From: Hydra vulgaris
Taxonomy: Eukaryota; Cnidaria; Hydrozoa; Anthoathecata; Hydridae
DNA: 64,000 nucleotides
NCBI RefSeq assembly: GCF_038396675.1
Contig: NC_088921.1
Coordinates: forward strand, 26,786,001 to 26,850,000
Reading direction: 5' to 3'
Part shown: positions 1 through 49,625 of the stretch, one piece after another
Layout: every line of letters starts with the position of its first letter
How positions within the stretch are numbered: position 1 is the stretch's first letter
Made by a program: the position numbers and the translations under genes
Notes under the pieces: generated by a model
The model's input: only the letters and a program-made list of their open reading frames with translations
What the model was told of the DNA's origin: nothing
The model's database searches: none

Positions 1-1687
1 TTGAAGCTCCCAAAAACGTCGAGAGAGTTCGTCAGACAATTTATAGCTCATCAGCGTCTTCGAGGGACAAAGTGATGAAGGAAATAAAGCTGATAAAATC
101 TAATAGAGGAAAGTTTTCCTATGTGAGTTATGAGGCAACATCTAAACAAATTAAAGTTATGAATATTCAAATTTTTGGACCCAATAAGTAGAATCAAAAT
201 CTTGGTATGATCGAAATGGGAAAAATATGTAATGCCAAAACCGTTTTGAGGTTGCCAAATTATCAATAATAATGATTAATAACCTTCGGCATTAATCCTT
301 ACCGAGATTGCATTGGTCAAACTATGGGTGGAGCAAGTATTTGCACTAAATCCGGCCGTTTTTCATAACAACTTCATCACATTTGCTATGATCATGGAAT
401 CCATCTTTGTGTGACACGAGTACAAAAACGTAAAAAGATAATTACAGATATCAATCGAGCAAATAAGAATTTATTATCAAACCATGTTAGCATGTACATC
501 TCAGAGTTTTTGCAACGCACCAAGCGTGCTTAGTTTAGAAATAAAAAAAGAAGAAGATGAAGACGAAAATAAAGCTAAAGCAAATTCTGACGAAGAAAAC
601 GTGCAAGATGAGGAAGCATTTGAGTACGACCCTGCATTGTCTAGTACTAAAACTCTCGAAGATGTTCAAACTATTGTAAAAAAAATTAAATTTACACTTT
701 AATTAGTCAAAGAGCTTAAAGAAAATACTCAATCTCTTAGAACTAAATTCAAATTGCTAGTTCTTGATGTCAATACTCGATCGAACAATACATTGAAAGT
801 GTTGAAAACTTTCAAAGACATGATCCCAGCTATAAAAAAAAACTCTTAAATCATTTGGACATGATTGTCCTGATTATTTAGAGACAATCATTCCTGAATT
901 AGTAGCAACTCTTCAACCGTGTAAAATGGCTATGGATACCATGAGTAGCGATGATGATGATTTGAACATTGCAGAAGGCGCATTAGAATTTTTGTTAGAG
1001 GAATTGCGAACGAAGAAAAGTTTAGTTTGTGCTCGTTTGATTGAAGAAATTGAAATAATTCTTAAAGAAATGATTCTTAAAAGACCTCTGATCTTAATGT
1101 TATTCTTGTCAAGTTTCTCAACAATCCAGCAGTTCTTAAAGAGCCGAAAGTGTCCCCATTCTTACTCTCATCAAATAAAGAAATTATTGAAGAAACGAAA
1201 AGAATCTGTCTTAAACATTTTTTCACTCCATCCAGTAATGATGACAGTATTGGTGTTGTGGAAATTGCATCTGAAGCTCATCAGACAGTCGAAAAGACTC
1301 CCAATGATCTTAAGTTACGTCTTCTCGCTTCCTTAAAACATCGAACAACTTCAAACTTTGTTTCAAAGCTCAAAAACCCACCTAGAAAAAAAAGAGAATC
1401 CAATGCCCGACAACAAATCCGAGTCAATGATTTGACTGCTGATGAATTTAACAGCTACTTTACGACTGTAACTCAAATGGGAAAAGTTATGCATGTTAAA
1501 AAATGCGTTGAAACTAATCAAGTCATCATCGATTCGTTGTGAACAAAATTTTTCAATTTCAAGCAACCACCGTACTAAGAAACGGGAGAGAATGACAGCT
1601 GCAACTTTGAATGACTTAAGTCTTTTGAAAAGTTTTTTCACGAGTCAACGTTTATTTGATAAATGTAGAAAACTTAAGGTTCATTAA
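1..1687 (+). pseudogene. hAT transposase, left copy, cut by the window start
   Basis: This is a broken hAT-superfamily transposase read in several frames. From base 3 a frame runs through a DDE-core segment (residues such as KVMKEIKLIKSNRGKFS), then shifts near 190-250 and 330-460. An acidic stretch follows (484-702). The helical part is at 926-1540 and the hAT dimerisation domain at 1493-1687, with the family signature visible as SSSIRCEQNFSISS, then TKKRERMTAATLNDL and LKSFF. In intact relatives the dimerisation Glu lies in a similar S.ESERAFS context; here it is RCEQNFS. Stops and frameshifts at about 193, 702, 850 and 1540 make it non-coding. Compared with the inverted copy at 10.57-12.33 kb it keeps a core segment (about 31-446) that the other lacks, and it lacks 28 bases near 478. 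The N-terminus lies outside the window. Confidence 0.8.
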
Positions 1688-1759
1688 TATAATAATAATA
1701 AAAAATTATAAAACACAAATTTTCGGAAAATTTCAGTTTATTTTCATAGTTCTTACATT

Positions 1760-1880
1760 TTTGAAAAAATCTCGGTTTTATCTTAGTTTTGTACGAAAAT
1801 ATCTCGGTTTTATCTCAGTTTCGTACGAATCTCGGTTTTATCTCAGTTTCGTACGAATCTCGGTTTTATCTCGGTCCAAA
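1760..1880. repeat. hAT subterminal short repeats (CTCGGTTTTATCT)
   Basis: At least four copies of CTCGGTTTTATCT, each followed by CAGTTTCGTACGA or a variant, lie in tandem just after the transposase. The same motif occurs at the matching place in the inverted copy (10.57-10.64 kb). Short subterminal repeats near the ends are common in hAT elements, where they serve as transposase binding sites; that role here is inferred. Confidence 0.6.
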
Positions 1881-1886
1881 ATATAG

Positions 1887-2204
1887 ATCAGGTCCAAAAA
1901 CACGTTGTCGATACAATTTTTTAAATTTATCTCATTTTCTTTAAGACCAGGTATAAAAACACTTTGTAGACAAAATGAAGTTAAAATATCTGTTTAAAGT
2001 ATATAAACTTATCCTTATAAAATTCCTTTTCGTATAATACAATAGTTCTAAGGGTTATATATACCCTCGTTATACGAGCAACATAAAAAAAAACCTATTT
2101 GAAAACAAACAAATGATAAAACTCGAACATAATGTTTTCTTGCGTCTTCAATAAAAAAATAAGATTTCTAAAACAACGATGTGACATAATCACTGTAATC
2201 TTCA
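1887..2204. other. AT-rich spacer without a recognised gene
   Basis: This is non-coding AT-rich sequence between the hAT copy and the GIY-YIG remnant. I see no conserved coding frame or repeat structure. Confidence 0.5.
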
Positions 2205-2495
2205 TTCAAACTCTTTTCTTTTGGAGATCACTGGTGATATCGTCTTTCAAAAACTCTTTCACTTTCTTCTTAAAATAATCTGCCTCTACTTTAACCGTGT
2301 TTTTTTTTATTTCCGCTAAAGGCAACATGGCGATTTCTGGAATGCCCCGCTAAAGCTAAATTTTTTCCTCAAAAGTATGTCTTTGATGTTAGCAAATGCC
2401 TCTTAAAACCTTTAGCTTTGTTTCACCTACATAAAATTTTATATTTGAACACTCCAGTTTGTAGACTCCAGGATAAGGTTGTTGGGAGGTTGAGG
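2205..2495 (-). pseudogene. GIY-YIG endonuclease remnant, Penelope-like retroelement
   Basis: On the minus strand, from about 2485 downwards, one frame reads YPGVYKLECSNIKFYVGET. That gives the GVY and YVG strands that define a GIY-YIG nuclease, followed by a Lys-rich segment. After a stop it continues in other frames with HQRHTFEEK (the conserved R...H region) and a Lys-rich tail to about 2205. In Penelope-like elements this domain is the C-terminal endonuclease after the reverse transcriptase. No reverse transcriptase is visible upstream, where a pogo element begins at 3306. The piece is short and broken, and assignment to Penelope rather than another GIY-YIG retroelement rests on the domain alone. 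Confidence 0.5.
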
Positions 2496-2499
2496 CTTG

Positions 2500-3303
2500 T
2501 TTTTTTGAGTTATCTGTCGAAAGCTTTTTGGTGAGTTCAAAATTAGAGTATACCCTGCATTTTTAAATATCTTTTTTAATTGAATACTTAATTTTACTTA
2601 CTCATTGTAGAGAAATATAATTTAATTGTAGTTCATTGATGTTAATATTGTTATTTTGTAGATTACTTTGCTTATTGTTTTTTTTATTTTTTTGACAATG
2701 GTTTGACGTATCTTTTTATTATAAGAATAAAAAAAATGGTCATATATGACCATTTTTTATGAACATTTCCGTAAGAAACTTTAACTAATGATTCACATGT
2801 TCTTTGCTGCATAATGCAAAAACTTTTTGAAATTAACTTTTGAATACATCATAAAATATTTTTGGATCGTGACAAGAATGCGGCTTTATGTGCACATTTG
2901 TTATTGCATCCTTGCGATAGGTGTTAAAGTATGTTCCGGATTTGTTATTTGTTACTGGAGATCAAGAAAATTTATTGTAAGTGAATCACTTTCTTTTTTC
3001 AATTGTATATTTGATAATTATGTTTTGATTATTTAACAAGTCGAATTTTTTTTCTACAAATACTATCATGATTGATGCTCAAGTAAGCTGTCGTCTTCTA
3101 TTTCTATTATAGTTTTGTTTAATTCACGTCGTATTATTGTCACTTTTATTAATTTAGTTTTTTTCCTCTAAACACTAATGCTTCGAAATATCTTCCTTCC
3201 TTCATGTTTTCCTAACTCATACAATTTACTGTTTTTTAAACCATCTGTTGCCATGGCAAATATTATATTGTTTGCTACTTGAGTACTAAATGCAGTGTTT
3301 ATG
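2500..3303. other. AT-rich flank of the pogo insertion
   Basis: No gene was recognised. A 69-codon open frame at 2827-3036 is hydrophobic and resembles nothing I know. The stretch ends at the TA target site of the pogo element. Confidence 0.5.
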
Positions 3304-4006
3304 TACCGTAAACCGAAGTAACTTTGGCCATTTTTAAAAATTTTAATTAATCATCTGTAACTTTTAAACAGTTAAGTAACGTTTTAATATTTTTATTTTA
3401 TTTGTAAATGCAATCTTTCTTGCTTAAATTTTGATATGAAGTTTGTTGCCAATGCTCTTTACTATAAGTGGGAAAGAATGAAAATTACATCTTGGTAAAA
3501 CACAATCAAAAACTGTAAAACAGAATGTTGTCTCGGCGAAGATAAAAATGATAGCAAACAACTCAGTTTTTCTTCTGTTTTGAAGACAAAGGTTCAGATA
3601 AAATTAAGCGAAAAGTTTTTGGTTCTAGTAACAACATTCTGGTTTTTTTACAGGGTGGTTTTGGGGTAACTTTAGCCTAGTAAATAATATTTATTTTAAA
3701 GTAGTCTGATCGTCATTTATTATAACTATAATATTTTTTTGAAGCATGTTATCCGAGTAATTTATTTTGAAAAACAGTTCTTAGCATGAGTGTGTTTTAG
3801 TATTTTTAAAAAAGTATATTTTCTTGTTAAAATATTTCCTGTTGTTGTTGCTAAATCATAATTTCATTAACTTTATAACAAAGTTAATATTTATAGACTC
3901 TAACTTTTTAATTTAATTGCAATTTAATAAAATTATATAATAGTTTAATAAATTGCGACATTGCAATTTGCTTGTGTTGTTTATATTTACTTTTGTTTAA
4001 AGCATA

Positions 4007-5092
4007 ATGCCTCGTAAATATAACAAGCATTGTGTTGGAAAACGTGCATACAACACTTGTTCTAATACCATTTTTTTGAAAGAGTGTATGAGTGCAATTA
4101 AAGAAGGTATGTGCATTCGTCAAGCCTCAAAAAGGTTTAGTATACCAAGAAGCACTCTACATAATAAAATGAAGTCAAAGCATAAAAAATGCATTGGTGC
4201 ACCAACCATGTTTACTTATGATGAATAGCAGTTATTTTCATCTAGAATCAAGGTTATGTGTGATTGGGGATTTCCATTAAATTAACTTAATGTTAAAATG
4301 TTAGTAGCTGGTTATTTAAAATCGAAAAATCGTACTGTAAAAATATTTAAAAACAATACTCCTGGTGATGATTGGGTCTCAAGTTTTATGAAATGAACAC
4401 AATTAACCCATAGAATTGCATCAAATATTAAAAGAAAACGAGCAACTATAAGCAAAGAACAATTAAAAACTTATTTTGGCAATATTAGACTTGAGCTTGA
4501 AGGAATTCCACCTGGTAACATTTGGAGTTATAATGAAATAAATTTGCGTGATGACCCTGAAAATAAAAAAATTGTTATGAAACGTGGAACTAAGTACCCT
4601 GAGAGAAAAATGAATAGCAGTAAGGCTTGTTTCTCTGTAATGTTTTGTGAAAATGGAGTTGGAGAAGTTCTTCCACCATACACAGTTTTTAAAAGCATAC
4701 ATTTATACGATTTATGGATAAAACATGGTCCAAAAAATTCTCGGTTGAATAGAACCCAATCTGGCTGGTTTGATGAAGTTACTTTTGAGGATTGGTTAAC
4801 ATTATTGCCATGCGTTAAGAATCATTTCGGGAAAAAAGTATTAATAGGTGACAATCTCTCTTCCCATTCAAGTCATAAAGTTATTCATTCTTGTGGAAAG
4901 CATAACATTACATTCATATGTCTGCTGCTCAATTCAACCCTTTTACTTCAACCTCTTGATGTTGCATTCTTTGCATCATTAAAAAAAAGCATGGAGAAGT
5001 ATACTTCTGAATTGGTAACTTACTTCTCGTATTAAAAAATTTGCAACGTTACCAAAAGCTTTAGATCAGAGTCTTTTAGACATTAAGTGAGA
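4007..5092 (+). pseudogene. pogo/Tigger transposase, inactivated
   Basis: The first piece (4007-4228, starting MPRKYNKHC) is a psq-type helix-turn-helix that would bind the element ends: it contains KEGMCIRQASKRFSIPRSTL. Stops at about 4228, 4284 and 4396 then break the frame. From about 4420 the reading resumes (HRIASNIKRKRATISKEQL), leading into the DDE_1 catalytic domain. The first catalytic site, normally YDET, reads YNEI here, so the Asp is lost. The following block RDDPENKK, the second site LIGDNLSSH and the third site LQPLDVAFF are intact. The frame ends at 5035 and similar sequence continues to about 5092. Loss of the first Asp plus stops means it cannot be active. It is not a host gene: it lies inside matched inverted repeats. 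Confidence 0.85.
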
Positions 5093-5668
5093 AAAAAAAT
5101 GAAGGTGGTGATAAGAAAGATGTTACACAAAGTAAAAATAAGAATTAAAAAAATGTATCCAAAAAAAGACTTAAAATTGAACCAGGAAAATCTACACTAG
5201 TGGCCATAGGAATGGACATCCCTGTAATTTTTACCATTTTTCTTAGAAAAGTTGACATATCATGCATTTGGTAGATTTAATTATTAATTTTTATATTTAA
5301 ATCACGTCATCTATTATTTGGCTTATAGGAAATCGCAAATTTTAATCGTTTATATCAATTTTAAACATAATTATGGATTATTATTGTTAACTGCTGTCAA
5401 AAATGAGTCATTGCTCTGCTAATGGGTTTTTCTAGTAAAAGGTGAATGTCTCATTATTTTTGTGTTTTTGTGAAAATTAGTCTATTTATTGTGATGACAA
5501 ATAGTTAATTACGTTATTAATTAGCACTTTTATTCATAACTCTTTTAAGCTATAAATACAATATCATTGTTTTGTAGTCATTTAGTTGAGTTTCAACAAT
5601 TGCTGGTGAAAAGTCGACATGACTCTTGAAGATTTAGTGTGTTTTTTAAAATTGTACTTTTATTTACA

Positions 5669-6655
5669 ATGACGAAAGGATATTGGTCATCTACAAAGCA
5701 ATGCAAATCTGTTACATTACGTGGAGAAGGTTATTCGTACATGGAAATCGTCAAAAAGTTGGGAAATGGAGCAACAAAATCTGGAGTGAGGAAGGTGTGC
5801 AAAAGGTTTAAGGCAACCATTACCTTCAAAAATGTGCCAAAAAATTGAAAAATTAAGAAGACAACTGCCAACGATGACAAGATGGTAATGAGGCTTGCAC
5901 TTAAGAACCAAAGAGCAACTTCAGCTGAAATTAAAAATGATTTAGAGGCCGCCGGAGTTTCGGTTAGTTCAAGAACAATTCGCTGAAGGCTTTTTGAAAA
6001 TGGTTTAAAAGCAAGAAGACCCAGGAAAAAACCATATTTAAACAAAAAACAACGAAAGGATTGTTTAATTTGGGCAAAAGAACACAAGGAGTGGACAAAG
6101 GAAGACCGGGCAAGAGTTATTTGGAGTGATGAAAGCAGTTTTCCATTTTTTAAAGTGATTGAATCAATTATGTGAGAAGAAGGCCCGGTGAAGATCTTTT
6201 ACCTGAGTGCACATTGTTTACAATGAAGCACCCCATAAGTGTAATGGTGTGGGGATGCATGATCAGAGAAGCTGTGGGTGTATCCACATTATGGATGGTA
6301 TTTTAAACGCCAAAAAATACCAAGGAAACATATTAGAAGCCGAATCACTCCCATCGATTGATGATTCGTTTGAGGGCAAAAACTGTCAAAAATTGGTTTA
6401 AAGCCAAAAAGATTAACGTTTTGATGTGGCCTGGAAATAGTCCGGACCTGAATCCGATAGAAAACCTGTGGTCTCGACTGAAAAAACTTGTAAGGAAAGA
6501 AAAACCTGGGAACAACCGACAATTAATAGAGGCCATAATCAAGTCCTGGTTTCACGTGATCAGCACTGAAGATTTGGGCAATTAAATGGACTCAATGCCT
6601 CATAGGATTGCTGCAGTAATAAAAAAAAATGGATATCCAACAATATATGAAGTTT
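5669..6655 (+). pseudogene. Tc1-family transposase, inactivated
   Basis: The protein begins MTKGYWSSTKQCKSVTLRGE with a first helix-turn-helix (to 5848). It continues after a stop with a second one (SAEIKNDLEAAGVSVSSRTI, about 5920-5985) and a basic linker. The first catalytic Asp is in VIWSDESSF (about 6118-6140). The usual second-Asp block (QQDNAPCH in relatives) is missing: sequence jumps from SLPSIDDSFEG to KTVKNWF around 6350-6385, which indicates a small internal deletion. The third catalytic site lies in GNSPDLNPIENLWSRLKK (about 6433-6490). The end is near YPTIY at 6650. Several stops and frameshifts plus loss of the second Asp block make it inactive. Confidence 0.85.
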
Positions 6656-6786
6656 TTTTTTTTATAAGTCATTTTTTTAATAACATGTTTTGTAAGCAGT
6701 AAAACATAAATTTACCATAACTTGCCACTTTGCCATTAAATTGTTATAGTTTTATATTAAAATTGTGAACTTTAATCAAAATTTAA

Positions 6787-6836
6787 TTTTTGATGTGTTT
6801 AGATTAAAAAGTTTTTTTTAATCTAAACACATCAAA
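6787..6836. repeat. Perfect long hairpin near the Tc1 3' end
   Basis: TTTTTGATGTGTTTAGATTA and its reverse complement are separated by only a few bases. It lies in the 3' untranslated part of the nested Tc1 copy and could have served as a terminator or as target of a foldback event; no function is shown. Confidence 0.8.
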
Positions 6837-7557
6837 AAATAATAACCAATATAGAAAACCGCATAAATATGGTTATTTTCTTTTAAAAAACACACTAAGG
6901 TGAAGTTTTCATATATTTTGAAGGGGTGTCTATTCCTATGGCCACTAATGTATTTCTGTAGAATACGTTAGTGAAACAGAAACAGCATCTGAAGGTGAAT
7001 AAGTCTCTATTGAATTTATGATAGATTACTGAAGAGATGCCTAAATTTAAAAAAAAAAAAACAGTTTATGTTACAAACTATTTGTTTATTCTTTAGTACT
7101 CTCTTATTTTTTGCTTTTTCTGACATTTAATAAAAAAATAATTTAAAAAAATCAAATTATTTTAGCTAATATGTTTCTTTAATACTGTTTATGTTTATTT
7201 TTGTTGTCCCTTTTTTTAATTTCATGACATATTTTAGGTACCCTTTTTGAAATAAATGCTAACTGTAAGCTTAAATTACATTAAATGTGGTAAATAACAC
7301 TTAATTTACATCCGATGCTAAAAAAACTATTTTAGTTTACTATGACAAAGTTACCCCATTGCCGGGTCACATTGACCATCTCATTATTTCCATAAAATCT
7401 TAGATATGGTGAATACAATGCATACACCATTTTGCTAATTAAATGATATTAGTAATGCACAACTTTGAGCATCAAAATAGTTTTGGGAAAATGTCCCTTT
7501 TTTTCAAAAAGTTATCTATTTATCAAAATTGGTACAAAGTTACCTCGGTTTACGGTA

Positions 7558-8125
7558 TCTAAAACCGCTTTCTATCAATGTCAACTTTTGGTAATGCGCA
7601 ACTAAGCGTAGTTCAGTTTTTCTTCGTTTTCTCAGTCAATTTACTCGGACTGAGCGCGTTTTGCAAATGGATTCCTCAAATATATAAACATTATAAATGT
7701 TATAAAATACATCATTATTATTGAAAAAAAAAAAAATTCACAAGTTCTGAAAAGTGTTTTATTGATGACTTTTTTTAAAATATTGTCCTTGCTTACGTTG
7801 AAAGGCTAAAAACGGGTTTAGTAACATTAAAAAGTATGAAAATTTAGAGATGAAATCAACCACGCCTAAGACTTGCAATACGCATATTAAAAAAACTGAT
7901 CTGTATTTTAATATCTTCGTTTAATTGTCAAAGTAAATTTATTTCAAAAACTAAAGAACCGTATACTGCAAAGAAATTTCTCTTTATAATTTTTTTTATT
8001 ATAAAATACAATGTCAAAGACATGCTCATTGAACCATATCTAGTTAAACTTGCAGTAAGCGATCGTGCGTGCAAAACTAATAAACCTCTCCAGCAGCTCT
8101 ACACTTACAACTTTTGCTTTAAAGT
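7558..8125 (+). promoter_or_regulatory. 5' flank of the secreted-protein gene
   Basis: This stretch lies between the pogo element and the start codon at 8126. It contains a possible TATA box, TATAAAAT at 8000-8007, about 125 bases before the ATG. No other element is recognisable. The pogo insertion sits only about 570 bases upstream of the coding start. Confidence 0.3.
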
Positions 8126-10167
8126 ATGAAATATCTTGTTGTATGTACAGTTCTTATTTGTCATGTAGGATTTTGTCAAGGAGCAGCGTTTAGTGATCGA
8201 AGTAAGTGTGAACGCTATTATCAGCTCAAATCTTTTTTTTTTTTTAACTAATTTTGTGAACCGTTTGGAAAATGGTTCAAAAGATTATTAGGGTGCAGTT
8301 TTTTTAAAGTTTTTTTATTTAAACATAAAAAAGTGCACTTCGGTGAGCTATATACTTTATTTTATTAAATTTTGTACAACCGCTATTTTGTTATATGGCT
8401 ATTTATTAATTGCATAAAATTTGAAAGATGCACTTTTATATTAGATTTTACTACCTTGAGAACAATAAAAGATGGCTATCATTCTCAAAAATAAAGAACT
8501 TATTTACACTTATTATTTAAATACATATTTTACTATTTAAAAAAAACACACGCGCGCATGTACACGCGCGCATATATGTAAGTAATTTGATTGATATATA
8601 ATTCTAAAATAAATAAATATGAACCACTTATATTAAAAATACTTTTTGTAAAATATTATAGTACTTGGAAAGAAGAAGACAGAAAAAAAAAAATTTGAGT
8701 ATAACAACCATGACATCATTTCCAAACGGCAATTTATTCCTGCTATACCAAGTGAGGCTTGTTTTGGATTTGAAATTATGTTAATTTGTCCATCGTTTAA
8801 AATTTTTTCTAAATTCTTTATGTTTTCAAATGTGTAGACTACGAACCTCCAGCTCAATTTCAGTACGCTCCTCAACAAAATATGTGGGAGAATGTTAACA
8901 CTTGGCATCCAGAAGTCAACAATTGGCCTCCAGAAATGAATAACTTTTCACCTGAAGCAGAAAAAAATGATTTACAAAAAACTAAAGTGCCGAGCTCGGA
9001 ATTAAATATACCTGAAAGTGAAGAAAATGCTGAGGCAGCATATAAAGGTTTATCATATTACATTGGAAGTACTATTAATAATAAAGTAGATTTTCCTCCG
9101 GGTTTTCCTGTAGCTCTTGAAGTTGACAAAGAAAAAAGCAATTACGAAGAAGAGGAGATGAAACTATCAAGTCAGTCAACAAAATCGCAAAAAGCCTTAG
9201 GTAGGAACGAAATTATAGCCAACTTTACAACAATTGTTGATTATAGTAATTCCCATGAAAATACGGGAACGCCTCAGTCAACAACTACGCCAACGACGAC
9301 AACTTCAACATCTACAACGGTGACAACAAAAACAACAAATAAGTCTACAAAGGAAGATTTACCATATGAAAGTGGTAACATTAAAGGTACTGTTTGTTAC
9401 TTACCACGAGTTGTTGTAACTACTAGACTTGTCGGTTACACTGTTATAAATGAAGTTAAAATATACACAAGCCCAAGAGACGAAAATTCCGTCCACAGTT
9501 TTGTATCAAGTCACGAAGTTTCTGACGCTGCTTCAAAAGTAACTCACGAATTTGTTCTACCTCCAGAATTTATTGTCGAGAAACCATTATCTAAATCAGA
9601 TATGAAGTTTTACAATAATGTTCCGGTTATGCTGACTAGCTCACGTATTGAAGGAAACCATGTTGGCAATCCTATATGTATTAGTGAACCCTGTGTAAGA
9701 AGGACTGAAGAAAATTTTGGTCCAACTTTTAATCCGTTTCTACCTACGACAAAAACCCAAGTAAAATTGGATAAAACAACAACCGGTACAACAACTGAAA
9801 TCCCTAAAACAACAACTACAACAATAACAACATCAACAACACCAAAAAATTTATCTTTAATTACCAAGATCCCATTAGCAATTAAAAAATCGTTGGATGT
9901 AAAAGTAATTAAACCAGTTGAACCAAAAAAACGCTTTAGTATTGAACAACTCAATTATGAAGCAAGGCATCGAAATGCGCTCTTTGATGTTCCTGGAGGG
10001 GACTCGTCAGGTAAACTTATTTTAAAAATCTGTTGAAAAACCTTTTGAAAAAATTTAATTAACATAATTAATGTGTATGCGTTTTACATTTAGCATTCAG
10101 CGGGTATCAAATACTAGGCCCTCCAGACGTTCAACAAGTTTGGATTAAAACAGCAGCAAAAAAATAA
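8126..10167 (+). CDS. Secreted Thr-rich (mucin-like) protein, three exons
   Basis: The model is exon 1 8126-8201, exon 2 8838-10010 and exon 3 10094-10167. All introns are GT..AG and all junctions keep the frame (phase 1 at both), giving 440 residues. Exon 1 encodes a signal peptide (MKYLVVCTVLICHVGFCQGA), so the product enters the secretory path. Mature sequence starts near AAFSDRNYEPP. Residues about 25-60 are Pro/Asn/Trp-rich with repeated W-P-E motifs. Two Thr-rich tracts (about 9277-9345 and 9770-9850) look like O-glycosylation stretches and bracket a Cys-containing region with four cysteines (GTVCYLPR, then NPICISEPCVRR). The C-terminus is basic. I recognise no domain and it may be lineage-specific. 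Flanking inverted hAT copies do not interrupt it. An AATAAA at 10334-10339 could be the poly(A) signal. Confidence 0.85.
8202..8837 (+). other. Intron 1 of the secreted-protein gene
   Basis: The donor GTAAGT lies at 8202 and the acceptor TGTGTAG at 8831-8837. The intron is about 636 bases, AT-rich. It contains an alternating purine-pyrimidine tract near 8549-8580 (ACACGCGCGCATGTACACGC), which can adopt Z-DNA in principle. Confidence 0.75.
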
Positions 10168-10514
10168 TAAAAAGTTGTGATTTTTTTATTTAATTCGTGA
10201 AACGGTGTTTTTTTATTGTTTAAAATTTATTTGTCAATAACAACCTCCGTGAATTGATATATTTGCTTAGCACCTGTAAATATACTTTTCAAATAATTTC
10301 GATTAGAATATAATAACAAGTTCATATAACTATAATAAAACATAAAACTATAATAAATCGTATAACTTTGTATATAAAATTGTTTATTATCTAAAAGTAT
10401 TTTAAAAAACTGTTAATAGAGTAATTCAAATCTACGCCATTTTATTGTTTTCTTGTAAATTACCTAACAGAAGGAAACAGAACAAGGAACAAAAAGAAAG
10501 TTTTATTCATGCTT
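10168..10514. other. 3' flank of the secreted-protein gene
   Basis: This is AT-rich 3' flank with poly(A)-like hexamers (AATAAA at 10334 and nearby). No other feature is seen before the right hAT copy begins. Confidence 0.5.
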
Positions 10515-10568
10515 TCAGAATCTAGGGTTTTTTTTCATCTCGATATAAGAGGTAATATTTTTCCGAGA

Positions 10569-12330
10569 CGAGATCTCGTATGAAACTGAGATAAAACCGA
10601 GATATTTTCGTACGAAACTAAGATAAAACCGAGATTTTTTCAAAAATGTAAGAACTATAAAAATAAACTGAAATTTTCCGAAAATTTGTGTTTTATAATT
10701 TTTTATTATTATTATATTAATGAACCTTAAGTTTTCTACATTTATCAAATAAACGTTGACTCGTGAAAAAACTTTTCAAAAGACTTAAGTCATTCAAAGT
10801 TGCAGCTGTCATTCTCTCCCGTTTCTTAGTACGGTGGTTGCTTGAAATTGAAAAATTTTGTTCACAACGAATCGATGATGACTTGATTAGTTTCAACGCA
10901 TTTTTTAACATGCATAACTTTTCCCATTTGAGTTACAGTCGTAAAGTAGCTGTTAAATTCATCAGCAGTCAAATCATTGACTCGGATTTGTTGTCGGGCA
11001 TTGGATTCTCTTTTTTTTCTAGGTGGGTTTTTGAGCTTTGAAACAAAGTTTGAAGTTGTTCGATGTTTTAAGGAAGCGAGAAGACGTAACTTAAGATCAT
11101 TGGGAGTCTTTTCGACTGTCTGATGAGCTTCAGATGCAATTTCCACAACACCAATACTGTCATCATTACTGGATGGAGTGAAAAAATGTTTAAGACAGAT
11201 TCTTTTCGTTTCTTCAATAATTTCTTTATTTGATGAGAGTAAGAATGGGGACACTTTCGGCTCTTTAAGAACTGCTGGATTGTTGAGAAACTTGACAAGA
11301 ATAACATTAAGATCAGAGGTCTTTTAAGAATCATTTCTTTAAGAATTATTTCAATTTCTTCAATCAAACGAGCACAAACTAAACTTTTCTTCGTTCGCAA
11401 TTCCTCTAACAAAAATTCTAATGCGCCTTCTGCAATGTTCAAATCATCATCATCGCTACTCATGGTATCCATAGCCATTTTACACGGTTGAAGAGTTGCT
11501 ACTAATTCAGGAATGATTGTCTCTAAATAATCAGGACAATCATGTCCAAATGATTTAAGAGTTTTTTTTTATAGCTGGGATCATGTCTTTGAAAGTTTTC
11601 AACACTTTCAATGTATTGTTCGATCGAGTATTGACATCAAGAACTAGCAATTTGAATTTAGTTCTAAGAGATTGAGTATTTTCTTTAAGCTCTTTGACTA
11701 ATTAAAGTGTAAATTTAATTTTTTTTACAATAGTTTGAACATCTTCGAGAGTTTTAGTACTAGACAATGCAGGGTCGTACTCAAATGCTTCCTCATCTTG
11801 CACGTTTTCTTCGTCAGAATTTGCTTTAGCTTTATTTTCGTCTTCATCTTCTTCTTTTTTTATTTCTAAACTAAGCACGCTTGGTGCGTTGCAAAAACTC
11901 TGAGATGTACATGCTAACATGTCACTCTCTGTATCTGATTCATCTTTGCTTTGGTCTGATAATAAATTCTTATTTGCTTGATTGATATCTCAACTCTCTC
12001 AACGTTTTTGGGGAGCTTCAACCTTTGTGTAATTTTCATTCAGCTTTTGCACCAATGGGTTCGCAATTTGGTTGAAGCTAAGTCCAATATTAGAAGCTAG
12101 CTTAACAAAATATCGTCAGTCAATGTTAGCTTTACATTAAAAAACAAGTCAACCATTTTTGAGCGAGACTGATGATGCGTTGATTTTTCGGATTTGTCAG
12201 CAGAAGGAACATGGCGATATTGATGGAACTTCCATAAATGCCGTAGACAACTTTTTTAATCTGGAGGGGAATGGCTAGAAAGAGTATGGGCGCAAATAAC
12301 ATGTCTCTTAACAATAAAACTCTTCGGAAC
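10569..12330 (-). pseudogene. hAT transposase, right copy (inverted relative to 1-1835)
   Basis: This is read on the minus strand from about 12330. A BED-like finger segment comes first (SCLRHLWKFHQYRHVPSADK in one frame), then LASNIGLSFNQIANPLVQKL (about 12110-12050), the acidic stretch 11920-11702, the helical part 11478-10862 and the dimerisation domain 10911-10717. Between 484 and 1687 of the left copy and this copy, positions correspond as x to 12404-x with no insertion or deletion, and every translated frame there is identical. A core segment of about 415 bases present at 31-446 is missing here near 11985. Shared frameshifts mean both derive from an already dead copy, or one from the other. 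The subterminal CTCGGTTTTATCT repeats recur at 10570-10640. Confidence 0.8.
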
Positions 12331-43479: not shown

Positions 43480-44140
43480 TTTTTTTTTTATAATGACCAG
43501 AATTCAAAGTTTTACATATCTAATGGATCATTTTTTATGATTATTAGAGGTTAATATTTGCCATTTTACTTTACCTCAAAATTTTTGAAAAATTTTACTC
43601 GATCAACCATTTAGATTTTTAAATTTTAAAGCTCTTAACGCACATATTACTAAAGTTATTTTTGTTCTTGTAAATCCATTTTTTTGCTTTTTTTGCTGAC
43701 TCAGCAGAAAAAAGGAAAAAAAATCATGCTTTTGACAAAAAGCAAAAGTCACTATTTGTGACAAATAAATGAAAAAGGTGTTTTTTATATTCAGTTTGTT
43801 AACTACTATCAAAATTTTTTTATTAATATAAAAAAAAGATCACATTGTAGAAAATGAAATTTATAGAGCAGTTCTACCCTAATATTGTAAGTAATCTCTG
43901 TCGAACTTATAGTGTAAATTTCATTTATTTTACTAATATTATTTTGTATAACTATAATACTATTTTGATAAAAATTACTTTGGTTTATCCTGCTTAACAT
44001 GCTTAGTATAATATAAAAAATGTCTTTCTTTATAACCTACATAAAGCAAAACTATTACTCTGTTCAAATTAACTTCTCTCAGATTAAACATACTTAAGCT
44101 TCTGTCAGTAAGAGACCTTTTCACAGTTCTGATCAATTAG
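43480..44140. other. AT-rich stretch, nothing recognised
   Basis: No supported coding or repeat feature. Confidence 0.4.
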
Positions 44141-44141
44141 T

Positions 44142-44191
44142 GCGCGCGCATAATTACTTGTACATCATTTGTACAAGTAAATATGCGCGCG
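44142..44191. repeat. GCGCGC-tipped palindrome next to the 44.2-48.9 kb element
   Basis: GCGCGCGCATAATTACTTGT and its near-perfect complement enclose a short loop (ACATCATTTG region). It lies only six bases outside the left terminal repeat of the large element. It may be a small foldback insertion or a target hotspot. Confidence 0.75.
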
Positions 44192-44439
44192 TTTTGTACA
44201 ATCTAATGTCAAAATGAGGTACCTAATACGATAAATTTCAAAAACATACGGTTTTCTATAAAAATCCTAAAACAGCGCCGCTATTCAATTTAAAAATATG
44301 ATTTTTTTTTACTATTTTACTAACTTACTGATTTGTATCATTTAATTTTATAATTATCAAATATAAGTGTAAGTTGACGAAAATGTAACCTTTTTAGAAA
44401 AAATAATATTAGTGGGACCAAAAAAAATTTTAAATAGCG

Positions 44440-44880
44440 GATTTTAGCTAATTTTGCCTAAATTAGACTTTTTTATACTGCTAAATGTTATTAATGACTG
44501 TTATTAATCTATCTTCTTCTGATTTTTAATGAATAAATGAAAAGTGCAATTAAATTTAGATTTGTTATGCATTTTCAGGTGATAAAAACATTTAAAAATG
44601 GTGGATTTTTAGCCATTTTTGCACAAGTTTGGCTGTAAAATATTAATAATAACTGTTATTGGGCTGTCTTATTCTGATTTTTTATGAATAAAGGAAAAGT
44701 GACCAAGTTTTAAACTGTTTTGTATTTTTAGGGGGTCAAAATAATTTAAAATTGTGGCTTTTAAACCAATACTGCATAAATTAGGCCTTTTATAAGATGT
44801 AAAATGTTATTAATGACTGTTATTTGTCTATCATGTTTTGTTTGGTAATGACTTTAGGAAAAGTGAATCTAAACAATTGA
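44440..44880. repeat. Subterminal array, left, unit about 160 bp
   Basis: GTTATTAATGACTGTTATT-type words start at 44487, 44641 and 44806, each followed by a TCTGATTTTT(T)AATGAATAAA-like word and a GGTGATAAAAA/GGGGTCAAAAT word. The spacing is 154-165 bases. The same unit appears reversed at 48060-48410. Confidence 0.7.
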
Positions 44881-44934
44881 ATTTAAAACTTTTATATAAA
44901 AAAATCAATATTATATCAATATGAGTTAGTTTTT

Positions 44935-47891
44935 ATAGACTATATCAAATATGTTTCCGTTATTGAGTGACTTGTTATCAGAAATATCGTCAAATTCATC
45001 TTGAATTGTGTTTTTACAACAAATACCTTTGCAATCACCACATGCCAAAACACAAAATAGGTCATTTCATCGACAAAAATATAGCTTAGATCCACATGAC
45101 CTGTTCGACAAAATTTTTCAGTGGCATCTTATAACGTGAAAAATTTCCTCTGTTGCAATTTTCTAAAAAATTACATTTTTGTATATTTGCTCTAAGTATA
45201 GAATATGAGTACCATAAGAAAAGATACCTGGTTGATCATGATGGTTACTATTTTTCCACTTATTATCTTCCAACCCCATTCAAACGAATTCAAGCCACAC
45301 TTCATCAACTTTTTCCACTGCCAAACCTGAAGGTATACTCTTAAACTGTGATACTATACTGCCCTTTTTGTAGGTGGTAGCTTTGATGGTACAATTTTGA
45401 GGCAGATGCAGCCATTTTCTTATATGTGTTGAATCTTATCTCTGAAAGTGTGTCATCAGCTTTTCCGTTGTACAGTATGATAAACAACTTGACACCTGCA
45501 TTCCCAACTTCCTCTTAATTAATTGTAAATTCAACCCAACTTATTCACTTATGTCAAAGTTTACTGTTTCATCTGCAATCAAACCAGTAAATAGAGACTG
45601 GAGCTTTGACCTTTTTGATTCAAATAACTTATTTGATTCAAAAAACTGAAATATTTTATCTAAGTCATCATAGTCTTTTTTTCTCCGACTCTTTTCCATT
45701 TCTTCATGTTAATCGCTACTGTTGTGTTTGTTGTCGGTTAACTCAGACAAAGCTTTGTGAATGCTTTGTGCGCACTGTTGAAGTAAATCCTTTACCTTTA
45801 GTCAGGCCGCCTCGATTTTTCAATGAACGCATCAGTACCTAGTAGAGTAAAGATTACAAACTAAAATATATATAACTAGTTCTATTAATATTCTAATGCC
45901 TGACCAATAAGCAATACTTACCAAATCTTTCAATACTTATTTGAGCATAACCAACTATACATTTTAAATACGTTGTAGGTAAAATGTTCGGATTTTATGT
46001 AGTGGATGTACCTCGTACCTGAAAAAAGGTTAAGCATTTGATTCAACGTGATCAAATGAAGATTCTAATCCCTTTTATGCGAAGAACGGATGAATCGAGA
46101 TATAATACCAATGTATTCCATATACTTATACCTTAACTTTGCCGTTTTGGACTTAAAAGCTAATACAGTTTTCAATAATTCAATAATGGAATCAAGCTTT
46201 GTAATAGCTGCACAACAAACATCGAAATAGTTAGTCTCTTTTTCTGAAATTTGCATGAAGAATTTTTCAGTCTCAATCAATTCTTCAGGTGTTAATTTTT
46301 TATTCACCAAAGCCATATTTGCATATTTTTAGCGCTTTCGAGTGAGAGCAGCATCAACAAGAAAGTGCATTCTTGTTGCACTTGCAGTCGCTTTGGCGTT
46401 GAGCATATGTTTCACACTTTTCTCTCAACAATAGCTCAATTCTTGGTTTAATGATAATTTTTTTATACAATCTAAGTTTTGAATGTGTGTAACCGAAGAT
46501 CGGTACTTTACTTCCTTTTCTCGTCACTTTGTCTTTTAAAAGAAGTCTACTGGGTCAAAGCAATTTTATTGCTTCAATTGGGTTATCTTTCCTAGATATG
46601 GTAGATGCAATAATAGCCATCCCATAGAATGTCCCAAGCCCGTGTAATGTGCAAACATTATGATCAACATTGTCCGGTATAAATATAGGTGAACATATCC
46701 TCAAAACTAAATTGTTTTAACTCTTGATCTACTGTTTGTGACAGTGATGCCTGTTTAAATTTTGTAACCTCGCTGTACGATATTCCAAACCTTAATTTGA
46801 ACAAATCGTCATTTAACCACCAAGAACAGCATAGATAATCTACTTCAACTGCAAGTGCAAACAGAATCGGCGGAATTCTCATAAGAGCAAAAACTTTAAC
46901 AATACATTGCCCAATACTTTCTTTTTGAACTCTTGAGTTTGTGAACTCTCTAAGAAGTAAACCTAAACTTTCTTGAGTTCAATCACCTTTTATTTCATCA
47001 CTCGTTGGGTAGCAGTTAGTGCTGTACACCTTTTCAAGGATTTCGGCTTTTATCAAATTAGCTGCCGACTTTATAATTCGGGATTTTTCACATTCGATAT
47101 CTTTTTCTATTTCTTTGAACCTTTTTTTTATAATAAAGTTTATTAATCTTTAAAACATGTTGTAAACACCTTTTGAAATATCCATGATATATGAGATCCA
47201 AATTTATCTTTTAACAACCTCTTTATGTAACGTTTATCATCCACTTCTTCACCCTCGGCAATATTTTTTTTTAATTTATTACGAAACTGGCTGAGCGTTT
47301 TAATTTCTGCAGTTGCTTTGAGCCATTCACATGCTTGGTTAAATGTATCCATCATATTCTCATATTGCTGCGTTCCTATTTTAGTGGATTTAGCTAATTC
47401 TTTTTTTGTTTGGAAATTTAAACTACAGCTCTGATGATATCTAGCTTCCGCAGCAAAAAGATCAGTCCAACTTAGTAATTGAGCTTGAATCTGAAGAGCC
47501 GATGAGTCATTTGCATTTTTCTCCTGTTTTAACGTGCAAATGCAAAGTAGTCTTTGTTTAATATCTAATGTTGATACCATATGCCAATTTTTTCGATTTA
47601 GGTTTTTTAAATGCTGGATACATTGTTTAGCTCAACAAAAACAGTTTATCCTCTAAGCAAAGGCGTCAATATATATTCGAGTACTTTTTTCTTGAAGGTT
47701 CTTGAACAGCAATACGTGGTTTGTTGTTAAAAAATTTTCTAAAGCTATCATGTACAAACACTATGTTTTGCTCGATTTCGATAAACATAAGTCTCTGTAT
47801 AACGAGTCTTCATTTTGTACTTTACTGTGTTTTCTTTCGGTCACTTGAATGAAATTCTCTTTTGTTGGTTCTTTACAAATAACGCACTCCA
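44935..47891 (-). pseudogene. Cys-rich protein of the large TIR transposon, broken
   Basis: On the minus strand from MECVICKEPTKENFIQ (47891, a CxxC start) it continues, after frameshifts, with RLLCICTLKQEKN, SALQIQAQLLSWTDLFAAEA, RYHQSCSLNF (HxxxC, completing a treble-clef-like finger; 47580-47440) and a helical part to 47143. Then come IKSAANLIKAEILEKVYSTN, PILFALAVEVDYLCCSWWLN (46882-46664) and PEELIETEKFFMQISEKET (46316-46065). Still further down are VGNAGVKLFIILYNGKADDT, IRFNTYKKMAASASKL and the Cys-rich C-terminus ACGDCKGICCKN (about 45040). I know this layout (finger, long middle, GGK-ADDTL-R-KF, Cys-rich end) from multicopy proteins in cnidarians and molluscs. Which nuclease fold it uses is not known to me. 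Confidence 0.55.
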
Positions 47892-48059
47892 TGATTTATT
47901 TTATATAAGCAAAAATAAAAACAAAAAAATATAATAAATTGTGAAAATAATAAACTACAACTTATTTTAAATTCTCATACGAAAGCAAAAAAATCTCCAC
48001 GAAAGTGCCGCACCATGTTAAATCTATCCAAAAATACAACGCATTAACTTCTGAAGAAA

Positions 48060-48410
48060 AAATGAAATCCAAAATTTGCATTATTTGGGCAAAACTAGCC
48101 AAAAATACACCATTTTTAAATATTTTTACCCCCTGAAAATATTTATTAATTTAGGTTCACATTTCATTTATTCATCAAAAATGAGAATAAGATAGAAAAG
48201 CAACAGTCATTAATAACGTTTTACAGTATGTAAAAAGTCTAATTTGGGAAAAAATACATCATTTTTAATTATTTTTACCCCCTGAAAACAGACAGATAAT
48301 AATTATTTATAACATTTTACAACCTATAAAAGGCCTAATTTAGGCAAAATTGGCTAAAAATCCGCCATTTGAAAATTTTTTAAATTTATATATTTGAAAT
48401 TTCAGGTCAT
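48060..48410. repeat. Subterminal array, right, mirrored
   Basis: These are reverse-orientation copies of the 160-base unit found at 44440-44880, for example GGCCTAATTTAGGCAAAATT near 48334 and two TTTTTACCCCCTGAAAA words (48123 and 48274). Confidence 0.7.
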
Positions 48411-48663
48411 ATTTTTCTATTCAATGTTATATAACCAAAGATATTGTTGGCTTAGAATAGAAATCAAATAGTCATTAAGACCATCCACAAATGGTCATTA
48501 AGACTAATCCAAAGTAGCGTGCGTTATTGACCAATATTTTTGAGTACAGAAGTACTACTCAAGCGCTGAGTTGGCGGGATTTAAACCTGCATCGTACAAC
48601 AGTCTGGATTTTAACTTTTTATTTGACACTCTAACCAACTGAGCTATTAAGCCACGACCCGAC
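48391..48663 (-). mobile_element. tRNA-derived SINE-like insertion in the right terminal repeat
   Basis: The head (48660 down to 48572, minus strand) has an A box TAGCTCAGTTGGTTAGAG and a B box AGGTTTAAATCCC, the internal promoter for RNA polymerase III. The spacing and stems do not form a proper tRNA: the acceptor ends do not pair and about 20 extra bases lie in the anticodon region. The body continues to about 48391. The left terminal repeat of the host transposon has no counterpart to this segment, so it was inserted later. I found no poly(A) tail. Confidence 0.5.
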
Positions 48664-48869
48664 TGATAATATTTTTTCTAAAAAGGTTACATTTTTGTTA
48701 ACTTACATTTATATTTGATAACTATAAACTTAAATGAGATCATGTAAGTAACTAAAAATTTCATATTTTCAATTTGAATAGAAGTGCCGTTATAGGATTT
48801 CCTAGGAAAACCATATATTTTTGAAATTTAATGTATTAGGTACCTCATTTTGACATCAGATTGTGAAAG

Positions 48870-49625
48870 AGGGGTATGCTGATGAGGTTTTGAATTTCAA
48901 CAACTGAAGGGTAGTAGAGACTTTTAAGCTAAAAGCTGCTTCTGCACTACTAAGTTTCCACTTGTCTAAGTTTAAGGTCTCTATTTACTTAGAGATGGTG
49001 TTTCAATAAAAATACTCATCTTGGGTAGATGTTAAATGCACCCGGCTACTGTCTTGTAGAAGACCTCCTAGGCAAAGACTTAAGGGGTAAACAGATTCTA
49101 TCTGTTGACCAGCTTCGCACCCTTCTTCATCTATTAGGCTGGCGCAGATGTATCTTTAATACATTGTTTCCAGTTTAGGATGTTGAATGCTGGATCTTCT
49201 TGACTCAATGCATGGGTTTTGCTTGTGTCTCAGTTTTTATGACTAGGCAACTCTTTTATTATCTCCTAATGAGGGTACAGCTCTAAAACTCAGTTTTATG
49301 GTTCTGAGGCCGGCTGGTAGTCAGGTTTCCCGAACTTTGTGGTAGCTCTCAGAGAGGCTGATTCCATCAACAGCTGAAAAATATCAAAGTATTAACAGTG
49401 CCATGTTGCACATGGATGGTGTCACTGTTTGTACTTTTGGTGTGCATTGCGGAGGCCACATTTGGAGCCCTTTGTTAGGGCTTAGGGTTTATTAGTAGTA
49501 ATGAGGCAATTGATTGAGCTATTAAACGGTGTTCTGAGTACTATCTATGCTTTGAGTCAAGTTCTTCAATCTAATTTAAATACGAATAAAGTACCAAAAA
49601 CTATAAAACACAAAAAACCATCATC
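48870..49625 (+). repeat. Probable 5' region of the LINE that follows
   Basis: This is GC-richer than its surroundings and without a long open frame, lying directly upstream of the endonuclease. It holds words such as GAGACTTTTAAGCTAAAAGC. It starts right at the edge of the large TIR element. Assignment as a LINE untranslated region is inferred from position. Confidence 0.4.

Follow-up and report, generated by a model that had tools for sequence, protein, structure and literature searches.

Within the Hydra vulgaris genome, a stretch of 64,000 nucleotides (contig NC_088921.1, positions 26,786,001 to 26,850,000 of the forward strand; hereafter the window, whose own numbering is used) holds a broken repeat element, and the question is which superfamily of DNA transposons it came from. 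A sequence-only reading had placed the element at 44198..48864, had described long terminal inverted repeats (TIRs), mirrored subterminal units and a protein with a finger and a Cys-rich end, all of which are present, and had left the superfamily open. Judged from sequence comparisons, the element is very probably a degenerate cut-and-paste DNA transposon from a multicopy family that belongs to the AcademX lineage of the Academ superfamily. This assignment is made because FEN/XPG-like motifs and a 3-bp target-site duplication (TSD), as described for AcademX, occur in other copies that have these TIRs; the superfamily could not be seen in the window itself because this copy had lost the nuclease-like domain. 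The boundary, the 3-bp TSD, the subterminal unit and the candidate catalytic acids given below are open to testing.

Terminal repeats, target-site duplication and classification

The genome (911,502,276 bases in 15 contigs, the window forming part of it) was searched with the 213-base left TIR arm, which gave at least 41 matches from 40 scored candidates out of 49 at first look, the window's two arms included, in agreement with the claim of a multicopy DNA transposon. The window and 20 fetched TIR-matching places make up the 21 loci discussed below. In the window, 44198-44416 and the reversed 48659-48864 were 79.5% identical over 220 columns (E 2.5e-46), and this alignment scored 195 bits, whereas 50 order-1 Markov shuffles of the element gave no more than 41 bits, so that the matching ends of about 210 bases stood far above shuffles.

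The element is larger than proposed, and in other copies the TIR continues past the given boundary. Beyond the equivalent of 44198 the extension measures 117-139 bases in 19 of the 21 ends recognisable in those copies; in the remaining two it is 223 and 323 bases and contains extra sequence. An alignment of 27 ends gave the common terminus 5'-TAGTCTAGTAAATAGAG, found with at most 4 mismatches at the expected end in 17 of the 21 loci and not within that limit in L009, L010, L019 or the window. The ends of the window copy are as follows.

44101..44188, strand not assigned: aberrant left outer end with uncertain terminus, of weak outer-TIR resemblance (AGTAAGAGACCTT, AATTAGTGC) and interrupted by a palindrome; aligned with 26 other ends
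44189..44416, plus strand: inner part of the left TIR, from the TIR alignment and genome matches
48659..48864, minus strand: inner part of the right TIR, from the repeat alignment with the left arm
48865..48995, minus strand: outer part of the right TIR, missed by the earlier reading, with a degenerate terminus at about 48995; from the end alignment

Two ends could be compared in five copies (L011, L013, L014, L027 and L028, spanning 3996-9054 bp), the other 16 of the 21 loci having no second testable end. An exact 3-bp TSD adjoined TAGTCTAGTAAATAGAG in all five (ATA, TAT, ATT, GTG, TTA), which is the TSD length that the earlier reading had proposed to determine from genome copies, and exact direct repeats of 2 or 4-10 bp were absent from them. 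The boundary was picked by eye on L011, L014 and L028, and L013 and L027 agreed afterwards; by our own arithmetic the chance of one 3-bp match is about 0.027 at about 72% A+T. The left end of L028 reads TTG instead of TAG, and this copy spans 9 kb and therefore probably holds insertions, at least one insertion lying in its right end.

Academ and AcademX are reportedly described in the works of Kapitonov and Jurka from 2010 and Kojima from 2020. In the parts of PMC10045372 used here, the TSD is 3 or 4 bp in AcademX and 9 or 10 bp in AcademH, which is tied to the encoded nuclease or helicase; Academ is also listed, with the Kapitonov and Jurka report cited, in the part of PMC4455052 at hand. The element family shares with AcademX the TIRs and the TSD, whose 3 bp lies within the AcademX range, and its protein has a domain that is nuclease-like by motif order. 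It differs in that the window copy is dead and without that domain, and mirrored subterminal units are unmentioned in the relevant portions of PMC10045372, PMC10294476 and PMC4455052. Bivalve Academ consensuses have a mean length of 5565 bp in the portion of PMC10294476 used, compared with the 3996-9054 bp of the two-ended copies. Searching the literature for Academ in combination with Hydra vulgaris and transposable elements turned up no paper, and a search for AcademX gave only PMC10045372; Hydra Academ entries are expected to exist in Repbase.

AcademH belongs to the same superfamily, but has the longer TSD and a helicase according to the same part of PMC10045372, and it was rejected because of the TSD length. 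No helicase family appeared in the Pfam lists for the window segments and relatives scanned, which do not take in the whole interior of every copy. An HUH or tyrosine recombinase element was rejected by reasoning, as TIRs and a 3-bp TSD speak against it.

Interior protein and nuclease-like domain

The large broken protein reported for the interior lies between 47892 and about 44995 of the minus strand, as eight frame-changing runs across three frames (nine listed segments, two of them contiguous) plus a Cys-rich tail. Both of its described motifs exist, the finger C-x2-C ... Y-H-x3-C (MECVICKE, RYHQSC) and CGDCKGICC, and we take the tail to be CXC-like. All rows below lie on the minus strand.

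47146..47892: N-terminal segment from MECVICKE, with the finger C-x2-C ... RYHQSC; frame reading
46667..47128: N-terminal third of the core, in another frame; frame reading and relatives
46429..46683: segment with the DNVDHN...TFYGM motif; frame reading and relatives
46426..46427: deletion junction, about 415 bp gone with the NPSD...TFDQPLW...LGGFH segment; window 46427 equals L027 3461 and 46425 equals L027 3877
45505..46424: C-terminal half of the core, left as remnants (HMLNAKA..., YKYMEYI..., LMRSLKNRGGLTKGKG..., ...FTGLIADETVN) in several frames; frame reading and relatives
45489..45523: deletion junction, nuclease-like domain gone, about 0.7 kb relative to L027; window 45523 equals L027 4752 and 45489 equals L027 5495
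45228..45502: remnant LYNGKADDTLSEIR...LPPTK..YHSLRVYLQVWQWK...WGWKI preceding the Cys-rich tail, in two frames; frame reading and relatives
44995..45156: C-terminal Cys-rich remnant ending CGDCKGICC; tblastn with the tail of the contig 1 relative, E 6e-5

L027, the reference for these deletions, is itself incomplete. By its reading frames the window copy is dead and internally deleted, and it cannot transpose on its own, because the frame is broken many times and both the nuclease-like domain and the part carrying the second core acid are lost.

The window read-through had at least 70 genome matches, its own pieces included (52 of 795 first-look candidates scored), and among the matches listed were stop-free distant relatives of 34-41% identity. 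One open relative of 1043 amino acids (P0001, locus L059, contig 1, 63.07 Mb), the kind of interior open reading frame for which a check had been suggested, had at least 76 genome matches of its own (44 of 1602 first-look candidates scored). Window protein and relatives have the finger N-terminus and the Cys-rich tail in common. Upstream of P0001, CLLCKD and YHFECY could be read by eye in the DNA, and the downstream Cys-rich tail was seen in L061; this tail was matched in 10 of the 21 loci, window included. L060 and L062 are further lineages of the same layout as P0001. No TIR was found within a few hundred bases on either side of P0001, and no long inverted repeats within the locus sequences of L060 and L062. 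P0001 probably represents a younger Academ lineage. Its locus apparently has several exons, and stretches 83-94% identical to it, most with stops, occur elsewhere in the genome.

Conserved acids were counted in alignment rows that take in degenerate copies, the locus of the query itself and overlapping loci (so that one copy is counted repeatedly). In the core, E649 (vIEq) was E in 19/19 rows, D411 (tfDq) was D in 12/14, and D242 and D245 (DNvDhN) were D in 26/33 and 28/33; of the other acids nearby, D383 was D in 11/15, D645 in 14/19, and E572 was E in only 3/27. D242/D245, D411 and E649 are conserved candidate acids of a DDD/E core, with no model match covering them. In the nuclease-like domain, D915 was D in 8/8 rows, D984 in 9/9, D982 in 7/9, D875 in 7/10, D1007 in 7/8 and D1009 in 6/8.

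We take the nuclease to be that of AcademX and to be of the XPG type. In P0001 the motifs follow the order ILDGG - FDGY - GDAD - ADDTD, with CDTTSAI...GK after them in L060 and L016, and the catalytic motifs of FEN1 have the order that matches ILDGG, FDGY, xxDAD, ADDTD and GCDTTSAI..GK. A full-length alignment with FEN1 was collinear, with FDG opposite FDG, DDSD next to EDMD and the CDTTS stretch next to SDYCE. The motif order was seen in L016, L021, L027 (partly), P0001, L060 and L062. Among TIR-bearing loci, L016, seen with a left TIR only, has the domain interrupted by a single stop, partial domains exist in L021 and L027, and there are further fragments in L013, L019, L020, L023 and L024. 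The domain is like FEN/XPG (Rad2) nucleases in acidic motif order, in the GCD...G-K segment and in collinearity, and unlike them in its weak statistics and in belonging to a transposon protein of far greater length.

Several results weigh against the AcademX assignment. It was made from a published description of AcademX, and the window copy has no readable TSD. A Pfam scan of the window segments and relatives returned no family at cut-off, and no XPG model was listed for the relatives, so that the proteins have neither a DDE nor an XPG model to confirm them. Within the nuclease-like domain, E980 was E in 1/9 rows and D1006 was D in 3/8, and the open L060 has N at D875. With hhalign, a two-sequence FEN profile scored 22.1, and 14.4 when reversed, where 200 column shuffles averaged 13.3 and reached 24.6; FEN1 alone scored 25.7 against a maximum of 19.2 in 100 shuffles, but reversed FEN1 reached 23.8. 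The domain is thus called XPG-like by motif only, because the FEN1 score is not secure and neither a PDB match below E 0.05 nor a Pfam family at cut-off was obtained.

These results would also suit a DNA transposon outside Academ, that is, an undescribed superfamily whose resemblance to FEN/XPG is limited to a few acidic motifs: no Pfam family reached cut-off, PDB sequence searches gave nothing below E 0.05, and the FEN1 profile scored below the best shuffle. We consider such a superfamily improbable, as the aligned motif order runs parallel to FEN1 throughout and the 3-bp TSD together with the nuclease-like domain fits AcademX as published in the parts of PMC10045372 drawn on above. Under the AcademX assignment, the protein with the finger and the Cys-rich tail is most likely an Academ transposase, of a family without a matching model in the Pfam copy searched.

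No relatives were found by profile searches of viral contigs (with the window read-through, two alignments and P0001), by searches of a separate collection of genome contigs with two protein alignments, or by tblastn of one window segment against phages and of a 272-residue read-through stretch against plasmids. PHROGs gave weak matches at most (best E 0.0025, function unknown).

It is also conceivable that the element is chimeric or non-autonomous, with the TIRs of one family around a captured protein fragment of a second family. In favour of this, the window copy is broken and its two outer ends are unlike each other, and 5 of the 20 fetched loci (L012, L018, L019, L025, L026) had no match to P0001. 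Such an origin is nevertheless very improbable, for the other 15 carry P0001-like segments, the five two-ended copies L011, L013, L014, L027 and L028 among them, and L012 and L019 carry the protein's terminal part.

Subterminal units and proposed mechanism

A unit of about 160 bases, said to occur three times inside the left end and, reversed, at least twice inside the right end, was found at two places.

44416..44880, plus strand: left subterminal array, three direct units of about 155-165 bp at spacings of 155 and 164
48085..48381, minus strand: right subterminal array, two mirrored units, from reversed repeat matches

Among themselves, the three left units have identities of 66-72% over 149-161 columns. 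Between left unit 1 and the first right unit 79 of 96 columns agree, and the second right unit matches the left units at 63-67% identity; the two right-unit cuts agree in 55 of 100 columns in the same alignment, yet 39 bases within them are 95% identical. Every locus but L028 (20 of 21) had matches to subterminal sequence, and in 10 of the 21 they lay on both strands (L010-L014, L020, L021, L024, L027 and the window).

A length of about 160 bp is common for tandem satellite units, so the arrays might be seeds of satellite DNA instead of functional transposase sites. This is an unlikely explanation: a single-unit query gave 66 matches of at least 90 columns in 30 locus-strand groups with just 1-3 per group, so the arrays are short in the loci seen (1-3 units per end), and the unit core TGTAAAATGTTATTAATGACTGTTAT is better conserved than the rest of the unit.

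For this element family the parts and the TSD are observed, and the individual steps are what we infer from them. The two Cys-rich modules may bind the TIR and the subterminal units. The core, as a DDD/E active site, would cut and join the ends with a 3-base stagger, and the FEN/XPG-like domain would trim or resolve strand structures left by excision or insertion. A further proposal, put forward tentatively and with considerable doubt, is that two nucleases in one chain (the DDD/E core and the FEN/XPG-like domain), assembled on mirrored arrays of 2-3 units at each end, could carry out excision or gap repair partly with the transposon's own flap nuclease, not that of the host. It can be tested whether a transposon protein employs a FEN-like nuclease of its own during transposition.

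Outer left end, right-arm insert and other structures

The whole of the aberrant left outer end (44101..44188) is common to L009 and part of it (to 44167) to L010, on the same contig. A palindrome at 44143-44191 (GCGCGC...TTGTACATCATTTGTACAA...GCGCG), also common to L009, replaces part of the outer left TIR. Window 43898-45447, comprising flank and left end, is 97% identical to L009 1-1555 at a distance of 230 kb on the same contig, and other window stretches are 80-87% identical to L009 (13-20% different); that the left part alone is 97% alike could reflect its recent duplication or conversion. At the left terminus of L027 (951-1166), an 18-bp unit (TTAACAGAGACCTTAAAG) that resembles the TIR end itself is repeated 12 times head to tail.

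The right arm of the window copy is interrupted by one insert.

48382..48658, minus strand: insert of 277 bp with a tRNA-type A box (TAGCTCAGTTGG) and B box (GGTTTAAATCC), from box matches

This insert is probably a tRNA-derived short interspersed element. It also exists in L009 and L010, and a related copy lies in L021 at 5635-5819, outside the element. ARAGORN and Rfam scans of the window found no tRNA.

Elsewhere in the window, an inverted repeat of about 1.35 kb (483-1834 and 10569-11921, 99.7% identical) encloses 8.7 kb, in which a frame of 212 amino acids (4397-5035) looked DDE-like by eye (IGDNLSSHSS) and a Thr-rich frame of 384 amino acids was found at 8882-10036. The structure at 483-11921 could have arisen by a recent inverted duplication or be a young element of large size.

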